A stretch of 31,263 nt of DNA, from the IMG/VR virus record IMGVR_UViG_3300031512_000008, positions 1 through 31,263 of that record; one strand, given 5' to 3'. The translations under genes and the position numbers were made by a program. This DNA comes from a virus. The number at the start of each line of letters is the position of its first letter. Position 1 is the first letter of the stretch. Positions 1 through 31,263 of the stretch are shown one piece after another. The notes beneath the pieces are model-generated. The model had not been told where the DNA came from and made no database searches. It was given only the letters and a program-made list of their open reading frames with translations.

Positions 1-127
1 TGTGGAAATGCTTCATCACGGTGTGCCGGCTGACCAGCAGGGGCAAAAGCGTTCGGTTCCCTTCATAGAGATGGTTCGGGAGTTCGACACGAGCTCGCGA
101 CAGGCGTTCATTCAGGATGCGTACGAC
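1..127. repeat. Terminal direct repeat, left copy
   Basis: Bases 1-127 are identical to the last 127 bases of the window. They lie inside the giant polyvalent gene and keep its reading frame across the join. An exact overlap of this odd length is typical of a de Bruijn assembler closing a circle, so the contig is circular or comes from a circularly permuted or terminally redundant molecule. It is not evidence of a biological 127-bp terminal repeat. Confidence 0.95.
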
Positions 128-2482
128 GTGTTTGCGTTCATGGGTGCGGAGCGTGCCATTGAGTTGATGGAGCGGAAGCAGGCGCAGGCGTACAACCAAT
201 TCCGCAAGAACATCGGTCTACCGGATAAAGAAACGGACGCGCATGACTCGTCGGACATTGAGCAACGGCTATCGCAGATGAGCGGAGATGAGGCAGAGCG
301 TTTTCGCAACGGGTGGCGTAGGGTTCAGCAGGGCTTGGAGCTTCAGGCAAGGCGGATAACGGGCTGGGGTGGTGGTATCCTGCGCGATGATGACATAGCG
401 CGTGAGCATCTGGAGACGCTGAAGCGTGAAGAACCTGACCGTTATGAGAAGCTACGGCGCATTGCGGGGATGTATCGTGAGATTTCTGACCATGTGCTGC
501 AGTATGCGGTGTCTTCGGGGCGTATTACGCAGGAGCAGTACGACGCCATAAAGGCGAGCAACAGGTATTACGTGGACTTCCATCGCGTCTTCGGATGGGA
601 GGCCCCAAAAGTGGAGGTATCGCGTTCGGGCAACGTTTCTCGCGTGAGCGCAATCACGTGGGAGATTCAGGGCTCGACTCGGCGCATACACAATCCGCTT
701 GTGTCACTCATGGAAAGCATCGCACGCGCGATAGCAGAGTGCGACCGCAACTATGCGCTGGCGCAGTTCGTTAACGCATTGGAGTTGGAGCGGCACATTT
801 ACGAAGGCGAGCCGACGCTGTTGGCGGACATTGGTCGACGGGTAAACGGCCCGACGACAAACGCCATTCTGGTGTTCCGCAAGGGCGAAGGTCAGTGGTG
901 GGAGTTTCATCCGGAGGTGATGAGGGCGTTTAACGCTTGGCAGGACGCGTATGCTTCGAATGGGTGGAACATTTTCGCGAAGGTCTGGGGTGCAGTGGCA
1001 CGGTTGGCGTATGAGGGCATAACGAAGCATCCCCGTTTCCTGTTGGGCAACGTTGTTCGTGACATGTTAGAGCGGTTGGTTCGTTCTCCGTTCCGCCCGG
1101 TGCGTGCTAAGAAGTGGCAACGTCATTGGTGGCAGTTCTTCGGTGGGTCGCACGCGGGCTTTATGCACCTGCAGCGTGAGGACTATTACGCGGAGTTAGA
1201 GAAGGTGATGGACGAGTTAGTGCGTGACAGGCGGTTTTGGGTGTTGCCGATACGGGTGTTGAAGCGGTTGTGGCGGTGGTACCTGCGCATAGCAGAGGCG
1301 AGTGAGGAGTTCGGACGGCTAAACGAGTTCGCGTCAGCGCAGCGGTATGCGGAGCAGACATTAGGTTATTCGACTTGGGACGCGATGCTGTTCGCTGCGT
1401 TCGCGAGCAGGCGGTACATGGATTTCCGTGTGGCAGGTTCGCTGGTGCGCGTCTTAAACCGCCTCGTCCCGTTTACGAGCGCGTCGGTTCGCGGGTTAAG
1501 CATGGGTGTGGAGGCGTTGATAGGTGCTGGCGGTGGCGGTGGAGGCAAGCGGGGCAAGGGCGGTGACGTTGGCGCAGGAGGCGACATGCCGTGGCACTAT
1601 CGCCGATGGGGCGTAGAGGGTATGGTAACGGATTCCCATCGGGCGTGGTCAACGTGGATACGGTTGCTGTTGTTCGTGGGCATACCGTCCATACTGGTGT
1701 ATTTATGGAACAACCGCGATGAGGAAACGGGTAGGGAATATCGGGAGTTTCCGCCGTACTTGCGTTACATGTTCTGGCTGGTGCATACTCCGTTCGGTTG
1801 GGTGAGCATATGGAAGCCTTACGACTATGGCGTGATTGCAAGCATTTTTGAGGCCGCAATAGACGGCGACATGGATGATTGGGCGAAGGCTTTGTCTCGT
1901 GTTGCGTTACCGTTGGATGAAGGCGACCTTGCGCTCGGGTTTGCGGGCATCGTGGGCGCGATAGCAAACTACGATTTCTTCCGCGGCCGCTGGATAGTGC
2001 CTCCAATTGAGGAGCGTCGGGCGTTAAAGGATTCTCGTGGCAGGTGGGCGCGGGACGTGTATGCGGCCAGCCCATTGGCCCAGGCGATAGGCGATGAGCT
2101 GAACGTGGACCCGAGGAAGGTAGATTATCTGTTGCGGACGCAGTTTGGGCACACCGGTGCGATGTTGGGCGAGGCGAGCAGGATGGCTGCTGGCGAGCGC
2201 ACGCTGTGGGACTTCATCCTGTGGCAATTCGGAACCAAGAGAGAATTGACCCCGTACATGGCGGAAAGCGTGCAGGAGGTATTAGACAAGGCGGCGCAGA
2301 CGGGACGCGATAGCAAGGTTCGCGGGTTGCGTGAGTTGATAGAGCGTTGGTATCGCCAGCGGGCGCGTGGTGCGTCCACTGAGGAGTTGCGTCCCCTGTT
2401 GCACCGGATTATTCGTATGGCCGGCAGGCAGGAGCGCAGGGTGAGCAGGCCCTTCCGCAGTAAGGTGCGGCCGCCCAAGTAG
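2..2482 (+). CDS. Giant polyvalent protein, 3' part (LPD38-like C-terminus)
   Basis: Continuation of the gene that starts at 23893; position 2 is codon 2416. It is not an independent gene: the apparent GTG start at 2 is internal and has no ribosome site. The segment is helical and rich in Trp, Arg and Tyr. It contains a Gly-rich stretch near 1530-1590 (residues about 2925-2945), one hydrophobic, possibly membrane-interacting segment near 1650-1715 (WIRLLLFVGIPSILVYLW), and a C-terminal block near 2104-2166 (VDPRKVDYLLRTQFGHTGAM). That block resembles the large polyvalent-protein-associated domain LPD38, in which a 'DYLL/I..GG.G' pattern is usual. The hydrophobic segment could help translocation or pore formation during ejection, which is inference. 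It ends with a basic tail and TAG, directly before the decamer array. Confidence 0.85.
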   Translation: MEMLHHGVPADQQGQKRSVPFIEMVREFDTSSRQAFIQDAYDVFAFMGAERAIELMERKQAQAYNQFRKNIGLPDKETDAHDSSDIEQRLSQMSGDEAERFRNGWRRVQQGLELQARRITGWGGGILRDDDIAREHLETLKREEPDRYEKLRRIAGMYREISDHVLQYAVSSGRITQEQYDAIKASNRYYVDFHRVFGWEAPKVEVSRSGNVSRVSAITWEIQGSTRRIHNPLVSLMESIARAIAECDRNYALAQFVNALELERHIYEGEPTLLADIGRRVNGPTTNAILVFRKGEGQWWEFHPEVMRAFNAWQDAYASNGWNIFAKVWGAVARLAYEGITKHPRFLLGNVVRDMLERLVRSPFRPVRAKKWQRHWWQFFGGSHAGFMHLQREDYYAELEKVMDELVRDRRFWVLPIRVLKRLWRWYLRIAEASEEFGRLNEFASAQRYAEQTLGYSTWDAMLFAAFASRRYMDFRVAGSLVRVLNRLVPFTSASVRGLSMGVEALIGAGGGGGGKRGKGGDVGAGGDMPWHYRRWGVEGMVTDSHRAWSTWIRLLLFVGIPSILVYLWNNRDEETGREYREFPPYLRYMFWLVHTPFGWVSIWKPYDYGVIASIFEAAIDGDMDDWAKALSRVALPLDEGDLALGFAGIVGAIANYDFFRGRWIVPPIEERRALKDSRGRWARDVYAASPLAQAIGDELNVDPRKVDYLLRTQFGHTGAMLGEASRMAAGERTLWDFILWQFGTKRELTPYMAESVQEVLDKAAQTGRDSKVRGLRELIERWYRQRARGASTEELRPLLHRIIRMAGRQERRVSRPFRSKVRPPK

Positions 2483-17017: not shown

Positions 17018-17128
17018 ATGGACGCCATAACCATCAAGCTCATACTGATGTTCATCGGCGCGTTCTTGTTGGGGTTCGTGGTTGGCTATCAATACGCCAT
17101 GAATGAGCAGGGCGGAGTGGTTGAATGA
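17018..17128 (+). CDS. Tiny single-span membrane protein in the lysis cassette
   Basis: 36 residues, GAAGGTGAG upstream. Nearly all is one membrane helix (IKLILMFIGAFLLGFVVGYQ) with an acidic tail. It follows the endolysin and overlaps the next gene by ATGA. It could be an i-spanin-like or holin-modulating peptide; too short to assign. Confidence 0.6.
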   Translation: MDAITIKLILMFIGAFLLGFVVGYQYAMNEQGGVVE

Positions 17129-18279
17129 GATTCGGGCGCGTCATTAAAAGCGGAGACCAGTTATTCGCTGCGATGTGCCAGCCTAGCTCCGGCGCAGTGA
17201 TACTGTCACGGCAATCCATCGACGATTACGTGCGGTTTCGCATTCCTGATACCGACTGCCCTCCGTTGCCGAGGCCGAGTAGTCCTTTAGATTCAGGCGT
17301 CGCCGACCAAGCCGAGCCGAATCGGTGGCTGGTTTCCGGTACGCCAGACACTTCCAATAAGTGGTTAATCAAGCAACAGACCGACCAGATCCAGCTATCA
17401 TACGCCTGTTATCCTGGCGATTTCGAACTGGAGTTTGAGGTTTCGGATTTATCGGTTCTCTCTGGTAGTGCGCTTGGAGTAATTTTTGACGGAATTGTCG
17501 TTGAGCTCAAGGTCGACGACAACAACTGGGCGTGTGTTGGATTTGGTTTTGTGGTGGGGGGCCTACCTGGTTTTTGTTGGCAGCGAATGGTTAACGGTCA
17601 GCTGGCGCAGGAACACGTTGGCGGTCCGTGGGAACCGTATGAATCCGTGTTCCGCGCTCGGGTTATCCGGAGCGGTAGCAGCTGGGCGGTCCAGGTTTGG
17701 TCGTCTGCAAATCCAGTCTGGTCAAATCCCATCCATATTGGGCCTATTGGTTCCGGACCGGTATGGATCCGAATTCGTGGATTACGGGCTTGGCTTGGCT
17801 CAGGGTATAACTGGTGGTCGGACAGGAACGTCCAGGGCAGAATTCGCTATCTGGTTACCAATTACGGTGCACCGAGCGCCATTTGGGTGCAAACGCCGGT
17901 GGTGGATGTTGGCGAACCCCGGCGCTTCAAGGCACGCGGTCTGCCACCTGCAGCCACTGTGCAGTGGCGAGCGAGCAACACACCATTTAACCCTGACGAC
18001 CCGAGTCCTTCTTGGACCAATCCAGAGGGCGAGTACCGGTACTGGCAGGCGCGAATGGCAACCACACAGCAACAGGTTTTGCTGGAACGGATTGAGCTTG
18101 TAGAGCTCGCCCAGAAACTGGTGTTTGAAATCATTTGCCCGACACGGACATTATACGTTCACCATGCGCAGGAAACATTTGCGCGTGGTAACGCAAAAGG
18201 TGTGGTTAGCATACATCGCACGCCAACGGATGAAGGCTATGGCATAGACTCAGAACGAGTGTTGACGGTGGACTGGTGA
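17125..18279 (+). CDS. Beta-rich tail/receptor-binding protein (putative)
   Basis: 384 residues, ATGA overlap. After about 50 residues it has a jelly-roll-like section (FELEFEVSDLSVLSGSALGV, IVVELKVDDNNWACVGFGF) rich in Gly, Trp and aromatic strands, then a C-terminal beta domain (WRASNTPFNPDDPSPSW). Such proteins bind surface polysaccharide or form short tail appendages. It resembles the layout of the 14700 protein. No enzyme motif seen. Confidence 0.6.
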   Translation: MRFGRVIKSGDQLFAAMCQPSSGAVILSRQSIDDYVRFRIPDTDCPPLPRPSSPLDSGVADQAEPNRWLVSGTPDTSNKWLIKQQTDQIQLSYACYPGDFELEFEVSDLSVLSGSALGVIFDGIVVELKVDDNNWACVGFGFVVGGLPGFCWQRMVNGQLAQEHVGGPWEPYESVFRARVIRSGSSWAVQVWSSANPVWSNPIHIGPIGSGPVWIRIRGLRAWLGSGYNWWSDRNVQGRIRYLVTNYGAPSAIWVQTPVVDVGEPRRFKARGLPPAATVQWRASNTPFNPDDPSPSWTNPEGEYRYWQARMATTQQQVLLERIELVELAQKLVFEIICPTRTLYVHHAQETFARGNAKGVVSIHRTPTDEGYGIDSERVLTVDW

Positions 18280-22202: not shown

Positions 22203-23893
22203 ATCCATTCTATCAGGCGTTGATGCAGATGATAGACCAATCTACGGCGTATTCGCCACCGCCGTGGCCTGCGCTGGCTTCGCCGTCTCCACAGGCATAC
22301 GGGCAGAGAATCCGCCGTCCCGACCGTCAGCCCGGGCAGGGTGGCACGTATCACATGCCGTGGGAGGTACCGGCGGTTGCAACGACGGGGCAGGCTGAAC
22401 AGCCTCCTGTCGCGCAGGCGCAGGAAGATGACCCACTGGTGCAGTTGTACAAGGAGATAGACAAGCTGTGGACACAGTACTATGCGTTGGGCGAACAGAT
22501 AGCAAGCAGCTCACCAGAGGATGTAGAGGAGCCAGAGCTTTTGGACATACCGCTGTCCATGCCGATGTTGCCCATGCCTCAGCCAGCACCGCTGGACAGG
22601 ACGGCGGTCACTCTGGCGTCTCTGGCGACACTGTTTAACCCTGCGGGAGGGGCGCAGTATTTGGCCGTTCCCCTGCAGATGCAGGAACGGGCTACGCGCA
22701 CAGAACAGGAACGTTGGGCGACCCTTCAGCAGATGGTGGCTACGCAGTACCGCAACGTCGTTGCGGGCATTGAGGCAATGAACCGCCTAAAGGTGCAGAT
22801 GTACAACCTGAAAAAGAGCAAAGCAGAAGACCTGTATCGCCAGCGTATGACCGTACTGGAGCAACAGCGAATGCGGATTTTGGACAGAATATCGCAGATG
22901 GAGCAGCTAGCGGCGCGTCTGCGTGAAGAGCGTGCGTATCGCCAAGCAACGGCACAGGCGCGAATGACGCAGGCGGAGGCTGCGATGCTTCGTGCGCAGA
23001 CCGGACAGGAGGCGTTAGAGGCGCGAAAACCCGTTTTGGAGGCACAGGCGGATTACCTGAAGGCACGGGCGGAGGCAACCCGAACGCTGTTGCCGGAACA
23101 GGTGCGTGTGCTGCGGGCCAGGGTCGAGCAGTTGTCGGCAAGTTCGCTTAAGCTGTTGAAGCAAGCAAGCGAGATAGCGACTCGCGTATCTGCCAAGCAA
23201 AACGCGATTGTGCGTACCGGACGCAGTTACATGAGCGCGGAGGATGTGGACGTGCGCAACCTGAACAAGACGTTTTACCAGTTGCTGGCTATGCGTGAGA
23301 AAGCAGTTCAGCAGATGTTAGGCGAGGGCTATTCGATGGCTGACGCTCAGGACCGTGCCGAGATTGATAGCCTGATAGCCACTCACGATGATGCGCTGGC
23401 ACGTCTTGCGTACCAGTTGTACGTCTCTACGGGTGGGGCACTCAATAAGTTTTCGTTGTTGCGCAACAGCGCAATGGCTACCGAGTGGGAACAGCGTGCC
23501 AAGAGTGCGGTTCGCCAGTTGGAGACGCGGAAGGCAGCTGCTTCTGTGCCGACAGTCAGCGTATCGGCTCCGATGGGCGCACAGAAACAGCACAAGAAAC
23601 CCGAACAGAAGTCAACGGTTCGTCGTTGGCTGGAGGCAGCTGGTGGATGGCTATCTCGCCTATTGGGTCGCTCGAAGCCAGCAACGTCGGGTGAGCAACC
23701 GCCGAAAGCGCAACAACAGTCACGGCAACCGCCGAAGGAACAGCCACAGGCACAGGGCGCCAAGAATACGCAGAAGTCTTCCCGTGTAGAGCTGGTGGTA
23801 ACGGATAAGGAATTAACGAAGACGCAACAACAGAAAAAGGCGCAACCGCAAAAGCCGAAAATCACCGTGAAATCGTTCGAAGAGGTGCGTTAG
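22199..23893 (+). CDS. Internal virion / ejection protein 2, coiled coil
   Basis: 564 residues. Pro/Gln-rich N-terminus (1-80), a hydrophobic stretch near 140, then a long coiled coil (about 165-340) rich in Gln, Arg, Glu and Met, then a disordered Gln/Lys/Pro-rich tail (about 450-564). No enzyme motif. Composition and place directly before the giant gene fit an ejected internal protein. The stop shares its last base with the GTG of the giant gene, so their translation is coupled. Confidence 0.6.
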   Translation: MNPFYQALMQMIDQSTAYSPPPWPALASPSPQAYGQRIRRPDRQPGQGGTYHMPWEVPAVATTGQAEQPPVAQAQEDDPLVQLYKEIDKLWTQYYALGEQIASSSPEDVEEPELLDIPLSMPMLPMPQPAPLDRTAVTLASLATLFNPAGGAQYLAVPLQMQERATRTEQERWATLQQMVATQYRNVVAGIEAMNRLKVQMYNLKKSKAEDLYRQRMTVLEQQRMRILDRISQMEQLAARLREERAYRQATAQARMTQAEAAMLRAQTGQEALEARKPVLEAQADYLKARAEATRTLLPEQVRVLRARVEQLSASSLKLLKQASEIATRVSAKQNAIVRTGRSYMSAEDVDVRNLNKTFYQLLAMREKAVQQMLGEGYSMADAQDRAEIDSLIATHDDALARLAYQLYVSTGGALNKFSLLRNSAMATEWEQRAKSAVRQLETRKAAASVPTVSVSAPMGAQKQHKKPEQKSTVRRWLEAAGGWLSRLLGRSKPATSGEQPPKAQQQSRQPPKEQPQAQGAKNTQKSSRVELVVTDKELTKTQQQKKAQPQKPKITVKSFEEVR

Positions 23894-26800
23894 TGCCAGA
23901 ACAAGAAGTTGTCATCACATACAGGGGCAACCGCTATCCTGCCTACACAGGCAGGAAGTTCCGTCTGGTGTTGGACGTACCTGACGGGTATAAGCTAAAG
24001 CCTGACGACGTAGCCCCTTTGCTGGAACAGCAGCTGCAACGTCTACGCACGGAGGAACGGAAGCGTGCGACTGCCCTTGCTTCCGAGCTTACCGCCCTGC
24101 CGTCGCTGGGGGAGCTGGTCGCGGAAGCCTTGCGCACGCCGGTCAGTCCGGGTAACGTTCCGCGCGGTGGCGTTGATGTGTTTGCTGGGCTACGGGACAA
24201 AAGCCAGTCCAAGACGGATTTTCAGCCGCCGGTCATAGCTCGGTCTCTGCCGACATCTGTGAAGGAGGTGGCGGAACGGGCACATCTGGCATCGCAAATG
24301 CCGAAGGCGACACCGAAGGACCTGAAGAAGGTATCGCAATACTTCTCACCCATAGCCAATTGGCTGGGTTTTTATCCCACTACTCCCCAACAATATCTGG
24401 ATGCAGCGAAAAGCGCAGTTCGCGAAGGGATAAACCTGTACGACATCAACAAGTGGATGGAAGGACAGGGTCTGAGTGCAGCGACTCGCGCGTACATCCT
24501 GAAGGAAGTTAGCCCTATCGTGGACTTGGAGACAACGGGCAATCTGGCAACCAAGATATACCGCGAGGGTTCGTTCTTCCTCTGGCGATTGTCGCAATTC
24601 GTCGGGGCTATACCGCGCTTTGTTGGTCAGATGATTCACGACGTCGCAGTAGTGAATTCGGAATATAGCGGCCCCAACACGTGGTTACGGGAAGCCATAG
24701 AGAACACGTTAGGCGTTCGTGGCGTAAAGCCTACGCAGTCGGAGGTCAACCAAGCGGAGAAGCGTCTGAAGGACGTAGCGAAGGGGTTGTCTCAGGACAT
24801 TCGCAGGCTGCTGCCACACAAGGGCTGGACAAAGGACATGGAGGAGTGGTATCGGCGTGACAGCATCGTGGGGCCTGCCGTGACGTTGGCGATACTGTTG
24901 GATGGTGTGTCGCTTGCGCTGAGAGGCACGGGTCAAGCGGTGGGTGCAGCCGCGGAGCGTACATTGCGTCAGGCGATTGAGCAGCTGCGGAAGCAACCTG
25001 TTAAAGTTGGGACGCCTGAGCATGTACAGGCAGAGTTGGTGGCTCGGGCGATTGTCAACGTGATTCGGGAGCGTCTGTCCCAGATAGAGAAGCGAGACGT
25101 CTCGGCATCAGAGGTGTTGGAGCGCATACGTGGCAAGTCGGAGTCGGAAGTGGCTCGCATGTTGCATCCAACGGCGAAGACGGTTGCTGAGGGCTTGGAG
25201 AAGGCAGGCTACTCCGTCGGGCTGTTGACGCGGTTTGTGAACCCGTTGGAATGGATGAGGATGACCGAAGAGCAGTTTGTGAGTGCGATGGAGAAGACGT
25301 TCGGCATCTCCAGAGATGTATGGGAGCGGTATTGGCAGGAAGCGTCGGCAGCACGTCAACGGGCGCAGTGGGCGCAGGAGATGAAAGCGAAGGCGACGGG
25401 CGGTACTCCACCGCCGACGGAGCAACCATCCTCGGGAAAGACTTGGGAGATGGAACCGCCGAAGCCGTTGCCCGCACCAGAGCGACCTGCGACGGCAGAA
25501 AGTAAGGCCGGGCCACAACCGCCGGTAGCACCCGAACCGCAACCGCAAACGCCGAAGCCACAAACGCCAGAAACGCTACGTATTGAAGAACCTGCGAAAA
25601 CTGGCGTGGAAACGAAGCCGACGGAGAAAATAGTTGCGGAGACCCAGCAACCCATCCCTGCTGAGGAGTATATCCCGAAGCGGATGGACTTGGGTCCAGA
25701 ACAGCTGGGCACGGAGAACCTGTCGTACACTGCCAAGCATACGCAGGTGCGTACACAGTGGGCAGTGGTGGAGTTAGACGACCTGAAGGTATCCCATAAC
25801 CCGCTGACATGGCACGAAAATCCGGAGTACCCGCAGGTGTTGCAACCGCGAGACCGGTCGGCAGCAGCCATGCAGCAGCAGGTCAAGGAGATAGCCCAGA
25901 ATCTGGTACCAGAGAAACTGGGCGATTCTGCCTCGACGTCCAGCGGTGCGCCGATAGTGGGCGAAGACGGTATTGTCGAGTCGGGCAACGGGCGAACGCT
26001 GGCGTTGTTGCTGGCGTATCAATACAACCCGTCGGCAGCGGAAAAGTACCGCCGCTGGCTTTTGGAGAACGCAGAGCGGTTCGGTATTAATCCGTTGGTG
26101 GTTCAGCAGTTACGTCGTCCCGTGTTGGTGCGTATCCGTCCGGTAGAACGGGAGCTCGGGGCACGTGCGTCGCTGGTGCTGGAGATGGGGCTGTCGGACG
26201 TAGCCCAGTTCAGTCCTGTCGACCGTGCGATGGCGGACGCGCGAATCATTGAGAAGCATATCAACCTGTTTAATCCGGATTTTGATTTGGACGCCAAAGA
26301 GAATAAGCGGTTTGTGGATGCCGTGCTGAAGGATATGCCGACGTCGGAAGTGTCGCAGCTGTTGCTAAGTGGAGGTGAGCTATCTCTGACGGGCATAAAC
26401 CGCCTCTATTCAGCCCTGTTGGCGTACGGCTATGGCAGTCCTGCGCTGTTAGGCAAGCTGGAGAGTCCTGACCTTGAGGTTCAGCGTCTGGCGAAAGGAG
26501 TAGCTGCCGCGGCAGCCGACATGGCTGCCCTGCGTTCTGGTCTGTCCATTATACGTCACCGCAATCCCGAGGCGGCGGATGCCTATGATATTGGCAACGA
26601 CATCGCGCAGGCGGTTCTGTGGATGGAACAGTTGCGGAAGGGTGGACGGAACGTGCGCGACTTCGTTGAGCAGGGGGAGTTGTTCGGTGGTGATTATGCA
26701 ATTCCGCGCGTTGTGAAGTTGCTATTGCTGGCGTTTGACCGGATGCGCAGTATAAAGGCAGTTCGCGTGTTCCTGAAGACCTATGCCGACCTTGCTTCAC

Positions 26801-29800
26801 GTGCAGCAGCGTTGGCGGCCGCGCCGGAAGAATCGCTGTCCAAGCAGCTATTGGAGCAAAAGAGGGATTTGCCAGACAAGGAGAAGCTTTTGCTGTTCGC
26901 GCTTCGGCAGGCAGAGGGCGGAGGCACGGCAGGGCTGTTCGATGATGAAGAAGGCGTACCCGACCTGCCGACGGCAGAAGAGCTGCTGTCGGGTATTACG
27001 ACGGAGGCTGCTGCCCAAACGGAGCAGAAACAGCGAAAGGCGACGGCGACATCTGAGGAGGGAGTGAGCGTCGATGTCAGGGTACCAGGCGTTTCTCGAT
27101 TCGGTAGCGCAGAATCCGCTGAACGCGCTGGAGGCGAGTCTAGCGCAGAGCCTGAAGAACCGTCCGGCGTACCTGCTGGAAGGGAACCCGTCGCTTCCGC
27201 GCCAGCTGGCGGAGTTGCAGGTACTGTCGAGTCTGGGGGTGGGGGAGTTGGAACGGCTGAATCTGCGGAACGACCAGTGGTGGGAGCCGGTGAGTCTGGC
27301 GACGGCGGGGCACCTGGAACACCTGCAATGGAAGGGCGTCGAGGAACGGCTTCTGCCGGCGGTGGACAGGTACCTGCTGAACATGAGCAAGTCGCTGGAC
27401 AAATTGAGCAAGGGGCTGGACGCGATGCAGGTGGACTATCGGAAGTTGGGACTACCGGTGGTGAAGGTGAGCCTACCGCAGAGCACGGGCGAGGGCGAGC
27501 TGGAGTTGTTCCTTCCGAATCTGGCGCAGTTCGAGCAGACGCTGAAGATTTGGACGAGCAACGTCGACGTGAGATTCTCGAACAGGATATCGCTAGTCTC
27601 GGTTATGACCCTAGACTCTATACTGCCTATAGCCCTCGGTTTACCGCTTCCTTAGTACCCCATCCCCGTCAGGTTCTTTTGCCTGCGTCGCTGGCAGGGA
27701 TTGAGCCTGACCCGATTACGGTTGAGGTTCCCGACATTCTCAAACGGATGCAGCTTGACGGCGTTATCTCGGACGCGCAGTTTGACGCTGTCATGTTGAT
27801 GCTAAATGCGTTCGAGAACAATCACGGCTTCGTGCTGGCAGATGACGTAGGGTTGGGTAAGACGCGGGAGATTGGGGCGTACCTGTATTCGCTATTCGGG
27901 CTCGGCAAAATTAACCGCGCTCTGGTAACGACGTTTAGCGGAACAAACGTCGCGGACATGATTTCTGTGCTGCAAGAGACGTTTTCGCGGTATGACCGCG
28001 GCGTGTCCATCATCGACCTGCGCCAGCTGCGGTCGGACACTACAGGTGGTCTGAAGGACTTTCCGATAGCGGACAGGGCTATATACGTGGTGGACGCTCT
28101 TGGCAAGTTCAAGGACGCGGTGTGGACTATCACAGGCATGGGGCGCGAGAGCGTAAAGGTTCCCATTGACGTATGGGTATCGGATGAGGCGCACACGACC
28201 CGTGGCACTGCGGAGTCGGTGAAGAACCAAGCTTGGCGTGCGATGCACGCGCACATGTTTATGAATGAGAACTACCGCATTGTGTACTCAACGGCTACGC
28301 CAGCGCAGTCTCCGACGGAGCTTCGCGAATTCTATGCGCTTCGTTTGTGGACGCTGGACCCCAATAGCTGGCACTCGTTTATCGGGATGCTTCAGGCGGA
28401 CTTGATTTCGACCACGACATGGGAGAATTTGCAGGAACAGGCACATTCGGCTGCTTCCATGACGTGGCAGGAGATAGCAAGAGAGCGGGGCAGCAAAACT
28501 AAGGAACAACGGCGTGGCGATGACACGACGGTGGAACGTCGTGTGCTGAAATATGATGAGATGGAACAGCTCATGCGCGAGCTGTATGCCTCGAACCGCT
28601 ACACGTCGCGTGACTTGGCACGCGGTGGCGTGACGTTCGAGGTGCGGGATGTGCCTTTGACTGCCGAAGAGGAGAACCTCATAGACAAGCTGGCGGAAAC
28701 GATTCGCCTCGCGGTGTATTGGCATTACATCGGGCGAAGGATTGACGTTAGGTCGCATCGCCCATTTCCGTGGGCTCACGCGCAGTTTCTGATGAAGCGG
28801 GTGTATCAGGGGCTGCGTCTGAAAAAGATTTTGCCGGAGATACAGCGGTTGGTTTCCGAAGGCAAGCAGGTAGTTTTGTATGTGGAAAGTGTGACGCCGA
28901 CGTGGGGACAGAGCGGTTCTGCCAAAGCGATTTTGGACAGTATCAACACAGAGCAGTGGACACGCGACGATTCAGGTTCCTATTCGTTTGTCCGCGAACA
29001 TACCGACGTGGTGATAGCCAAACAGGAGCTAAACGAGAGGTTCTCCGAATTGCTGGACATACCTGCCCCTATTGACGTGCTGGAGTCGGAGTTTGGCGAA
29101 GACCGGGTGGCGAACATCACTGGCGAAAGCTCTCCGTCGCAGCGCATGCGGCTGATTGACGAGTTTCAGAGTGGCAAGCGACGGATAGCGTTGCTGTCGT
29201 CGGCAGGGCAGGCGGGTATCAGCCTGCACCATGACTCTGCGGGCACTGGTCAGCGTGTTTTGTTATTCCTTGACATCCCGTGGCGTTCGGATTCGTTCCG
29301 TCAGATACTTGGGCGCGTGGACAGAACGGGACAGCTGACGTCTCCGCATGTGATTCTGGTTAAGAGCGGACTGGCGGGCGAGAACAAGATTATTGCGACG
29401 GTGGCGGCACGTCTGGCGTCTTTGGGTGCGTTATCAAAAGCGGAAAGCGAAGCGGTAGCCGGTGCGGAGTCGCTAGCGGAATACGAGATTGACCCCGTGA
29501 TCGGAGGTTCGGCTGTACGCAGGTTGTGGTCTGAGCTTGACCGTGCCGAGAAGGTGTTCTACATGAGGGAGGACTTCGCGTCGGACTTTAAGCGGAATGG
29601 CACGATAGAGCCTTTAGGTCACATTACCGCTGATTACAACAGGTGGGCATTGACGGTTTTGTCGTCTCTGCCGGCGCGTCTTCAGGCGAGGCATTACGAG
29701 AGGTTCATGGAGATATATGAGGAGTTGGCAGGAGTGCAGCGGGCGCGTGCGTCGCGCCATCGTGGGGTGATAGAAGAAGAGAGTCAGTTGACTGCGTCCG

Positions 29801-31263
29801 TGCGCTTATACACGGTGCGAACGGAGCAGAACCTGCGTTATGGCATTTTGTCCGGACGGCTTTTGTTGCCGGTAAGAGGTACGGCTCCGCTGATTCATCT
29901 GGTGAGCAAGGTAGAAGACTCGGGCGCGGATACAGGGTTTGTGACGTTCCGCGACGTTCGTTCGGGCGCGGTGGTATCAGGGCTACGGATTGGCATCACG
30001 GCTTTGGGCAGACTGATGGGACTGCTGAGCGCGGAAGGGGAGTTTAACGTTGAAAAGGCGTGGCTATTTCTGCAGGTTGGACGTGTGGTACTGACGCAGT
30101 CTCCTGACCCCGCCAAGCCGTATGTTCTGCGACGTACTAGTACCCGGGAGGGGTATGAGCGCATTCGGATTGATAATGCGTTGATGTCTCAGCGTGATGT
30201 TCTTATGTCCGCTGGAGCGCGTTTTGACGCGCGGTTGGGTTACTGGTATCTGAATTGGAACGTGTTGGACTTTGAGGAATTCGTGAAGAGGTTCCCGCTG
30301 CAGCCGTATAGCGAGGTGAAGAAGTGGGAAGAGGAGCAGTCGGCGCGTCGCGGTAGGAAGGGCGGTGAGACGCCGTCGAGCGGGGCGGGCAAGGGCGTGT
30401 TCTATCGCGACGACGTTCCGCCGATACCGAATATTGGGCAAGGTGTTGCTGGTCGTGGCGAACATCCGCAGGGTATCATTCTGCGTTTGGGCAGGTGGAT
30501 ACGTGTTGGACGTACTCCGAAGCGGGCGGCTGGGTACTATGACCCTCGTACGGCAGACGTGGTGATACGCCGTTGGGGCGACATACCTACGGCTGTCCAT
30601 GAGCTTGCCCATGCGATAGATGATGAGTTCGGGATTTTGGCGGAGTGGGCGGAACCGCGCAAGCATTCACCGTTTGATGAGGAGTTGTTTGAGTTTCTGC
30701 CGGAAGCTAGTCGGAAGCGGGGAAGCCTGCGGGATAAGCGAGCGGAAGCGTTCGCGCATTGGATGGAAGCTTACGTGCTGAATCCGGATGTTGCAGCCGG
30801 TTCAGCTCCGCAGTTTTACGCTCACCTACAGATGATGTTACCTGGGGACATGTGGGACGCGATAGAAACGTGGGCAAAGGAGATTCGGGATTGGGTTTAC
30901 TCGCCTGCAGGAGAGAAGATTCGGGCGCAGTTCGTGTTTGACAAGCCGAAGCCAGAACACATACCGGACACGTTCAGGGTTCATTGGGTAGACCAGTTGG
31001 TTCGGATATTCATAGATGACCGGTGGCCGGCGATAAAGGCATGGCGTGAGGCGAAGCGACGGCGTGGGTTGCAGCCGAAACCGTCAGAGGACTTCGAGTT
31101 GCTGATAAGCCTGTGGGCAGGGCGTTATGGAAAGTTTGTGGAAATGCTTCATCACGGTGTGCCGGCTGACCAGCAGGGGCAAAAGCGTTCGGTTCCCTTC
31201 ATAGAGATGGTTCGGGAGTTCGACACGAGCTCGCGACAGGCGTTCATTCAGGATGCGTACGAC
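23893..31263 (+). CDS. Giant polyvalent protein (ParB-like, strawberry-notch helicase, zincin), 5' part
   Basis: The frame is open from GTG 23893 to the window edge and continues at position 2 to the stop at 2482, giving 3,241 residues in total. The GTG shares one base with the preceding TAG stop and has GAGGTG upstream. Domains in order: helical N-terminus (1-500); Pro/Gln linker (about 503-595); DdrB/ParB-like domain (about 596-960) with ESGNGRT near 696-702; Gly/Ala/Glu/Ser spacer (about 1061-1235); SF2 helicase with Walker A DDVGLGKT (1317-1324), DEAH (1431-1434), STATP (1466-1470), GISLH (1775) and QILGRVDRTGQ (1804-1814); zincin-like HELAH (2236-2240) followed by an EAFAHWMEA segment that could supply the third zinc ligand. 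GISLH plus the GRxxRxGQ motif fits the strawberry-notch/SNF2 group used by phage polyvalent and DarB-like antirestriction proteins. Position after the ejection-protein genes suggests virion packaging and injection (inference). The spacer overlaps another candidate gene. Confidence 0.88.
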   Translation, partial: MPEQEVVITYRGNRYPAYTGRKFRLVLDVPDGYKLKPDDVAPLLEQQLQRLRTEERKRATALASELTALPSLGELVAEALRTPVSPGNVPRGGVDVFAGLRDKSQSKTDFQPPVIARSLPTSVKEVAERAHLASQMPKATPKDLKKVSQYFSPIANWLGFYPTTPQQYLDAAKSAVREGINLYDINKWMEGQGLSAATRAYILKEVSPIVDLETTGNLATKIYREGSFFLWRLSQFVGAIPRFVGQMIHDVAVVNSEYSGPNTWLREAIENTLGVRGVKPTQSEVNQAEKRLKDVAKGLSQDIRRLLPHKGWTKDMEEWYRRDSIVGPAVTLAILLDGVSLALRGTGQAVGAAAERTLRQAIEQLRKQPVKVGTPEHVQAELVARAIVNVIRERLSQIEKRDVSASEVLERIRGKSESEVARMLHPTAKTVAEGLEKAGYSVGLLTRFVNPLEWMRMTEEQFVSAMEKTFGISRDVWERYWQEASAARQRAQWAQEMKAKATGGTPPPTEQPSSGKTWEMEPPKPLPAPERPATAESKAGPQPPVAPEPQPQTPKPQTPETLRIEEPAKTGVETKPTEKIVAETQQPIPAEEYIPKRMDLGPEQLGTENLSYTAKHTQVRTQWAVVELDDLKVSHNPLTWHENPEYPQVLQPRDRSAAAMQQQVKEIAQNLVPEKLGDSASTSSGAPIVGEDGIVESGNGRTLALLLAYQYNPSAAEKYRRWLLENAERFGINPLVVQQLRRPVLVRIRPVERELGARASLVLEMGLSDVAQFSPVDRAMADARIIEKHINLFNPDFDLDAKENKRFVDAVLKDMPTSEVSQLLLSGGELSLTGINRLYSALLAYGYGSPALLGKLESPDLEVQRLAKGVAAAAADMAALRSGLSIIRHRNPEAADAYDIGNDIAQAVLWMEQLRKGGRNVRDFVEQGELFGGDYAIPRVVKLLLLAFDRMRSIKAVRVFLKTYADLASRAAALAAAPEESLSKQLLEQKRDLPDKEKLLLFALRQAEGGGTAGLFDDEEGVPDLPTAEELLSGITTEAAAQTEQKQRKATATSEEGVSVDVRVPGVSRFGSAESAERAGGESSAEPEEPSGVPAGREPVASAPAGGVAGTVESGGGGVGTAESAERPVVGAGESGDGGAPGTPAMEGRRGTASAGGGQVPAEHEQVAGQIEQGAGRDAGGLSEVGTTGGEGEPTAEHGRGRAGVVPSESGAVRADAEDLDEQRRREILEQDIASLGYDPRLYTAYSPRFTASLVPHPRQVLLPASLAGIEPDPITVEVPDILKRMQLDGVISDAQFDAVMLMLNAFENNHGFVLADDVGLGKTREIGAYLYSLFGLGKINRALVTTFSGTNVADMISVLQETFSRYDRGVSIIDLRQLRSDTTGGLKDFPIADRAIYVVDALGKFKDAVWTITGMGRESVKVPIDVWVSDEAHTTRGTAESVKNQAWRAMHAHMFMNENYRIVYSTATPAQSPTELREFYALRLWTLDPNSWHSFIGMLQADLISTTTWENLQEQAHSAASMTWQEIARERGSKTKEQRRGDDTTVERRVLKYDEMEQLMRELYASNRYTSRDLARGGVTFEVRDVPLTAEEENLIDKLAETIRLAVYWHYIGRRIDVRSHRPFPWAHAQFLMKRVYQGLRLKKILPEIQRLVSEGKQVVLYVESVTPTWGQSGSAKAILDSINTEQWTRDDSGSYSFVREHTDVVIAKQELNERFSELLDIPAPIDVLESEFGEDRVANITGESSPSQRMRLIDEFQSGKRRIALLSSAGQAGISLHHDSAGTGQRVLLFLDIPWRSDSFRQILGRVDRTGQLTSPHVILVKSGLAGENKIIATVAARLASLGALSKAESEAVAGAESLAEYEIDPVIGGSAVRRLWSELDRAEKVFYMREDFASDFKRNGTIEPLGHITADYNRWALTVLSSLPARLQARHYERFMEIYEELAGVQRARASRHRGVIEEESQLTASVRLYTVRTEQNLRYGILSGRLLLPVRGTAPLIHLVSKVEDSGADTGFVTFRDVRSGAVVSGLRIGITALGRLMGLLSAEGEFNVEKAWLFLQVGRVVLTQSPDPAKPYVLRRTSTREGYERIRIDNALMSQRDVLMSAGARFDARLGYWYLNWNVLDFEEFVKRFPLQPYSEVKKWEEEQSARRGRKGGETPSSGAGKGVFYRDDVPPIPNIGQGVAGRGEHPQGIILRLGRWIRVGRTPKRAAGYYDPRTADVVIRRWGDIPTAVHELAHAIDDEFGILAEWAEPRKHSPFDEELFEFLPEASRKRGSLRDKRAEAFAHWMEAYVLNPDVAAGSAPQFYAHLQMMLPGDMWDAIETWAKEIRDWVYSPAGEKIRAQFVFDKPKPEHIPDTFRVHWVDQLVRIFIDDRWPAIKAWREAKRRRGLQPKPSEDFELLISLWAGRYGKFVEMLHHGVPADQQGQKRSVPFIEMVREFDTSSRQAFIQDAYD
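27074..27655 (+). CDS. Candidate overprinted gene nested in the giant ORF
   Basis: 193 residues in the frame one base later than the giant gene. ATG 27074 is preceded by AGGAGGGAG at 27056-27064, a strong ribosome site. The codons are dominated by CTG, GCG, CAG, GAG, CCG and AAG, with G or C in the third position as in the other genes here. The giant frame over the same bases uses GCT, GGA, CCT and GGT and yields a Gly/Ala/Glu/Ser-rich spacer. The product looks like a normal, mainly helical soluble protein, with DQWWEPVSLATAGHLEHL in the middle and LPNLAQFEQTLKIWTSN towards the end. The last 30 or so residues run over frame-1 helicase sequence and look less natural. I do not recognise the family. 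Either the gene is expressed from inside the giant gene, or it is an older gene over which the giant frame was fused. Confidence 0.5.
   Translation: MSGYQAFLDSVAQNPLNALEASLAQSLKNRPAYLLEGNPSLPRQLAELQVLSSLGVGELERLNLRNDQWWEPVSLATAGHLEHLQWKGVEERLLPAVDRYLLNMSKSLDKLSKGLDAMQVDYRKLGLPVVKVSLPQSTGEGELELFLPNLAQFEQTLKIWTSNVDVRFSNRISLVSVMTLDSILPIALGLPLP
31137..31263. repeat. Terminal direct repeat, right copy
   Basis: Exact copy of bases 1-127. Position 31138 corresponds to position 2, and both are in the frame of the giant ORF, so the gene reads straight through the join. Confidence 0.95.

Follow-up and report, generated by a model that had tools for sequence, protein, structure and literature searches.

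Does the DNA that connects two modules of a giant phage gene encode a second protein in a shifted reading frame? The question is raised by positions 27074 to 27655 of the virus record IMGVR_UViG_3300031512_000008, whose whole length of 31,263 nt is the window of the current study. An exact 127-nt repeat at both ends of the window (1–127 and 31137–31263) indicates that the record represents a complete circular (or circularly permuted) genome, whose size is 31,136 nt once the terminal repeat is removed. PHROGs recognises a terminase, a major head protein and tail proteins, i.e. the gene content of a small tailed phage. The longest gene, a giant polyvalent ORF on the plus strand, occupies the last third of the genome, starts with GTG at 23893, reaches the end of the record at 31263 and proceeds over the junction to 2482. 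Its 3' part (2–2482, plus strand) is recognizable from the exact 127-nt repeat and the in-frame continuation; the gene is hence split by the record ends because they represent a circular junction, and the full ORF comprises 3241 aa. Searches for a sister phage via the ParB module (nearest match 40% identity), the terminase (top matches about 30–36%) and the whole giant ORF retrieved no close relative.

The giant protein harbors a ddrB-like ParB module (25708–26778, plus strand; residues ~606–962), which is recognized by PF18763 with an E value of 3e-35 and 121 bits against a cut-off of 27.6, and the ORF exhibits 32% identity to DdrB of phage P1 (tblastn). A strawberry-notch type helicase module follows at 27658–29745 (plus strand; residues 1256–1951), and the scores of its N-terminal (PF13872, 48.2 bits) and C-terminal part (PF13871, 98.2 bits) both exceed the cut-off. 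The combination of ddrB-ParB and strawberry-notch modules is a hallmark of polyvalent antirestriction-type proteins (Iyer et al. 2017, PMC5512222). According to PMC9024508, DarB and DdrB of P1 are among the proteins of the virion head, and by likeness to them the giant protein is presumably packaged in the virion and injected. Beyond the helicase module we observed a HELAH motif of the HExxH type, which suggests a zinc metallopeptidase domain, although no such domain was among those reported by Pfam. Between the ParB and helicase modules lies a linker (27073–27648, plus strand; residues ~1061–1252), whose giant-frame translation had been described as rich in Gly, Ala, Glu and Ser; the measured proportions of 24% Gly, 16% Ala, 13% Glu and 9% Ser agree with this description.

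The linker DNA contains the ORF in question. It is located on the same strand in the +1 frame relative to the giant ORF, extends from an ATG at 27074 to a TAG stop codon at 27653–27655 and encodes a leucine-rich protein of 193 aa. Its stop is situated at giant residue 1255, the edge of the helicase module. The ORF analysis bears out that both frames are open over these 582 bases, as the preliminary description of the locus had claimed. At the sequence level the nested ORF has its own ATG and a ribosome-binding-like word: the Shine-Dalgarno-like word AGGAGGGAG (27056–27064, plus strand) was correctly noticed before, but it ends 9 nt upstream of the ATG rather than the 10–12 reported. Such words precede only 4 of 173 out-of-frame ATGs within the genes. 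A nested-frame TGA (27065–27067, plus strand) is found just 5' of the ATG, and the nested stretch can accordingly not be entered by a change of frame upstream of this stop.

The codon usage of the two frames differs strikingly from 27074 to about 27550. The GC content of third positions is 0.83 in the nested frame and 0.36 in the giant frame, with true genes ranging from 0.54 to 0.79. Synonymous preference over the same bases amounts to +0.30 for the nested and −0.19 for the giant frame, while the values of the 259 comparable true-gene windows range from −0.04 to +0.23 (maximum 0.226); the nested frame thus ranks above every true-gene window and the giant frame below every one. The Spearman correlation with the codon usage of the genome is 0.655 for the nested and −0.21 for the giant frame (Hotelling t 3.4, p 0.0016), compared with an average of 0.65 and a minimum of 0.29 in true-gene windows. 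In a sliding window, genome-like codon use quits the giant frame at 27074 and is back near 27550–27700. The earlier statements about G/C-rich third positions in the nested frame and atypical codons in the giant frame hold for the stretch up to about 27550, where the nested signal is strongest; over the remaining bases up to 27655, neither of the two frames gives a clean picture.

By its length the ORF does not stand out, since antisense nested ORFs of this genome reach 333 aa. Among the 51 nested ORFs of at least 80 aa in the window, however, the one at 27074–27655 has the highest codon score (z = 5.3; next best 3.0) and is alone in surpassing its host stretch in codon preference. The second-highest score belongs to a +1-frame ORF of 205 codons (17486–18103) within the gene at 17125–18279; its codon preference is no better than that of the host, and it is probably a chance occurrence.

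A G-rich low-complexity linker might mimic coding in the +1 frame without any protein being made, and the GNN-rich codons of the giant frame indeed put G at the third positions of nested codons. We consider this purely compositional explanation highly unlikely. When the giant protein was held fixed and its codons were resampled from the usage of the genome, which preserves the composition, the nested likelihood still lay 5.3–5.6 sd over the expectation. Moreover, the signal is missing from an ordinary linker of the same protein (residues 495–600), whose third-position GC content of 0.59 is normal, and low scores were obtained for GC-rich strawberry-notch genes that lack a nested gene.

The reverse calculation, with the nested protein fixed, asks how readily the giant frame stays open. 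Over 27074–27550 we expected 6.7 giant-frame stops and observed none, which corresponds to a P(open) of 0.0008; with the G-rich third bases of the region itself the expectation is 3.7 stops and P(open) 0.018, values that serve as guides rather than formal tests because the open giant frame is how the case was noticed. The proposal that a high G content at third positions makes it easier for the shifted frame to stay open was therefore right in direction, as shown by the decrease from 6.7 to 3.7 stops, but this bias still does not make the openness of the giant frame free. Nested codons ending in T are completely missing where a giant-frame stop would arise, i.e. before AA, AG or GA (0 of 44 versus 7.2 expected), and occur 13 times at the 114 other places (18.9 expected). 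The two frames are open over the same bases beyond chance (z 5.3; P 0.0008–0.018), and the lack of giant stops together with the T-ending codons missing at stop-making sites makes the stretch look dual-coded.

The sharp flip of codon preference at both ends of the stretch would also be compatible with an artefact, namely that the nested stretch actually belongs to the giant protein and has been shifted in frame by two compensating indels through assembly error or mutation. This scenario is very improbable. It requires indels on both sides, and the TGA at 27065 confines the first of them to ~27067–27074, exactly at the Shine-Dalgarno-like word and the ATG; furthermore, the openness of the giant frame and the lack of T-ending codons would be coincidental, and the same layout recurs in relatives that represent dozens of independent assemblies.

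The nested 193-aa protein has no homologue in the phages, plasmids, viral contigs, Pfam, PHROGs, NCBIfam, PADLOC and PDB that we searched, nor did 18 related virus records or the 398 genomes searched from a single phylum contain one. The best plasmid match (E 8) is a chance match in an unrelated locus, Pfam including the TnpV family PF14198 gave no match up to E 1, and a single-sequence AlphaFold model is uninformative (pLDDT 34.5). A profile of the nested family from Acinetobacter described below aligned with an hhalign probability of 0.1%, which indicates no homology. Without a homologue and with this mismatch, the case of the window is built on the codon statistics of the ORF itself together with analogy.

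This analogy is provided by plasmids and prophages of Acinetobacter with a strawberry-notch helicase, which contain a +1-frame ORF of 119–121 aa in the linker directly before the helicase. The family comprises the loci L002 (7625–7990), L003 (8009–8368), L018 (12806–13165), L024, L028, L037, L067, L094 and L098 as well as the viral contigs L215–L263 (from 3001). All 49 viral-contig loci, corresponding to 22 distinct sequences, possess the ATG and a nested ORF of no less than 110 aa, and their giant frame is open; with six of the ten compared loci also among these 49 records, the total is 53 loci, and the nested ORF is intact in all of them. The comparison of the ten loci yielded 120/79/164 minimum changes at the first, second and third nested codon positions (p 3e-7 against equality), counts that represent minimum state changes without a phylogenetic model and include some near-identical loci. 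In every pair the identity of the nested protein exceeds that of the giant, and the third frame has 12–18 stops versus none in both coding frames. For five of these genes 6.5–8.6 giant-frame stops were expected and none was observed. Substitutions thus track the nested frame and not that of the giant, a pattern from which we conclude that the Acinetobacter ORF is under purifying selection.

No convincing match for the Acinetobacter family was found in Pfam or PHROGs. Its predicted fold is a helical protein (pLDDT 68.8), for which neither BFVD nor PDB (best Z 4.0) contains a convincing structural match, and the PLSDB gene tables of L002 and L003, which are incomplete, do not list the nested ORF. 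Three alphaproteobacterial strawberry-notch genes used as controls (L264, L265 and L266) reached z values of at most 2.1, and the Acinetobacter phage gene L267 gave no nested-gene signal, thus indicating that the signal is not a general by-product of the gene family. The Acinetobacter ORFs resemble that of the window in their location in the linker before the helicase, the +1 frame, the Shine-Dalgarno-like start and the openness of both frames, and they likewise end at or just inside the helicase module; their proteins of 119–121 aa, however, have no detectable similarity to the 193-aa protein of the window.

The relatives also bear on the idea that the nested frame is a relic, i.e. a former gene that was later overrun by the giant frame and has ceased to be expressed. 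The asymmetric codon usage and the absence of homologues would fit such a history, but a relic is expected to gather stops, and here the start codon, the Shine-Dalgarno-like word and all 193 codons are intact. Together with the purifying selection that the relatives maintain on their nested frames, this makes an unexpressed remnant hardly credible.

The phenomenon is apparently not restricted to the linker in front of the helicase. We ranked the nested ORFs of 75 non-redundant long ORFs of related loci by their resampling score and supplemented this survey with a follow-up scan of Gly-rich linkers. In L009 (13104–13424) and L013 (13164–13484) the nested protein, encoded in the +1 frame of the giant, is a TnpV protein (PF14198; 30.8 bits versus a cut-off of 27), and its ATG is preceded by the Shine-Dalgarno-like GGAGA. 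A further copy in L114 (from 5144) is 56% identical, and the giant frame is open there as well. All three loci share with the window a small +1-frame protein in the linker of a ParB-containing giant, but TnpV is a known family in a later linker and the window protein does not match PF14198. Another small nested protein is located just after the ParB module in L009, L013, L025 and three further loci (the L112–L117 family). Its nested identity (0.65–0.98) is higher than that of the giant frame (0.33–0.90) in every pair, and the minimum changes of 28/15/48 by nested codon position show that the silent position of the giant is the least variable one; to judge from these substitutions, the family is under purifying selection in the nested frame.

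Two additional ORFs are worth mentioning. A 114-aa +1-frame ORF with a CPEC motif (L100, 13041–13385; z 3.5) is nested in a giant with DarB-like similarity from a Verrucomicrobia MAG; it looks like another hidden gene, and a search for a relative found none. In L101 (7404–7973) a 189-aa +1-frame ORF is preceded by AAGGAGAA, a strong Shine-Dalgarno-like word, and, like the ORF of the window, extends up to the beginning of the helicase module; its searches returned chance matches only. Three loci were discarded: in L108, which the survey had flagged, it is the flagged frame that encodes ParB, so that the supposed “main” frame is not the real gene; the stretch flagged in L107, at the 5' end of its ORF, is probably a case of the same kind; and L004 has no convincing nested gene (z 1.9).

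Taken together, the ORF at 27074–27655 very probably represents a real same-strand nested gene whose bases also encode a disordered linker of the giant protein, a conclusion based on the codon statistics of the window and the analogy with its relatives. The DNA between the ParB and helicase modules would then specify the 193-aa protein in its +1 frame and the disordered Gly/Ala/Glu/Ser-rich linker in the giant frame. One message would give rise to two products: ribosomes that translate the giant would read through the nested region, and others, directed by AGGAGGGAG, would begin at the nested ATG and finish at the border of the helicase module. Internal initiation at 27074 is the most likely way of expression, and the nested product is presumably stable. 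Such a dual use would be cheap, because the linker needs only openness and hydrophilicity. We can only guess that the product is a small accessory protein that is made together with the antirestriction-type giant and perhaps acts on it; it might serve the giant as a chaperone, in loading or in regulation.

The relative age of the two frames can be approached with the codon-usage criterion for the ancestry of overlapping genes (PMC3744397). The preliminary description had regarded the nested frame as selected and older; the selected appearance is supported by the codon statistics, and the greater age is what this criterion predicts, so that the nested frame is likely older than the giant frame in this stretch. 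The associated proposal that the giant arose when a ParB and a helicase gene were joined across a third gene gained no direction from the relatives, since ParB and helicase are adjacent separate genes in L003 and reside in one ORF in L002. A fusion of the two is plausible. In both loci, however, the linker at the N-terminus of the helicase already doubles as the coding sequence of a small gene that differs from the one of the window. This arrangement speaks more for hidden genes that move along with the helicase module than for a single trapping event during a fusion in the window phage.

Alternatively, the disordered linker may have come first and the nested gene may have arisen within it de novo by overprinting, a scenario that concerns the origin of the gene and not its existence. 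A linker that tolerates almost any residue could later have allowed the nested frame to acquire genome-like codons. When codons are resampled under a constant giant protein, 4–9% of the draws leave the +1 frame open by chance, compared with a P of 0.0008–0.018 for a giant frame that is open over an ordinary gene; the linker would hence provide the easier start, and the openness of the giant frame would need less explanation. Relatives have Gly/Ser-rich linkers in front of their helicase, and the failure to find homologues of the nested protein points in the same direction. The codon-usage criterion, on the other hand, marks the nested frame as ancestral, and the nested product of one relative is TnpV, a known family, which documents that, in this relative at least, the nested gene is an entity of its own. 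We therefore regard the prior existence of the linker as possible, but rather doubtful.

There is about an even chance that small +1-frame genes are commonly concealed in the inter-module linkers of giant polyvalent genes from phages and plasmids, and that at least four unrelated ones (those of the window and Acinetobacter, TnpV and the L112–L117 family) have been taken in independently. If this is true, Gly-rich “disordered linkers” are often the shifted-frame reading of small genes, and the hidden products are overlooked co-expressed accessory or counter-defence proteins. To our knowledge, gene-calling programs reject long overlaps on the same strand, and such genes are thus invisible in most annotation. 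If the genes are real, each of the examined Acinetobacter elements with the helicase encodes an unlisted conserved protein, and the window phage another one at the same spot. They would explain concretely where the low-complexity linkers of giant phage proteins come from and provide natural material for studying the translation of a single message in two frames, and the class can be tested in laboratory Acinetobacter strains that carry such prophages.

Overlapping genes are an already-known kind, and overprinting in viruses gives two proteins per stretch (PMC8227390, PMC3744397). In our search of open-licence papers we found no description of same-strand genes hidden in the linkers of polyvalent proteins, and a term search of Iyer et al. 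2017 (PMC5512222) gave no mention of overlapping frames. With its ddrB-ParB and strawberry-notch modules the giant ORF of the window resembles the DdrB/DarB-type polyvalent proteins of P1, but it differs from the proteins of that study in that the linker itself appears to be dual-coded. A known arrangement of a similar kind is iddB of phage P1 (NC_005856), “internal to ddrB”, an annotated ORF that, like the one of the window, is nested in a ddrB gene (PMC10695390). However, iddB runs antisense to ddrB inside the ParB match, whereas the window ORF is located on the same strand in the linker. Compared with overprinted virus genes, the newer-looking frame of the window is not a small gene but the linker of a giant multi-domain protein.
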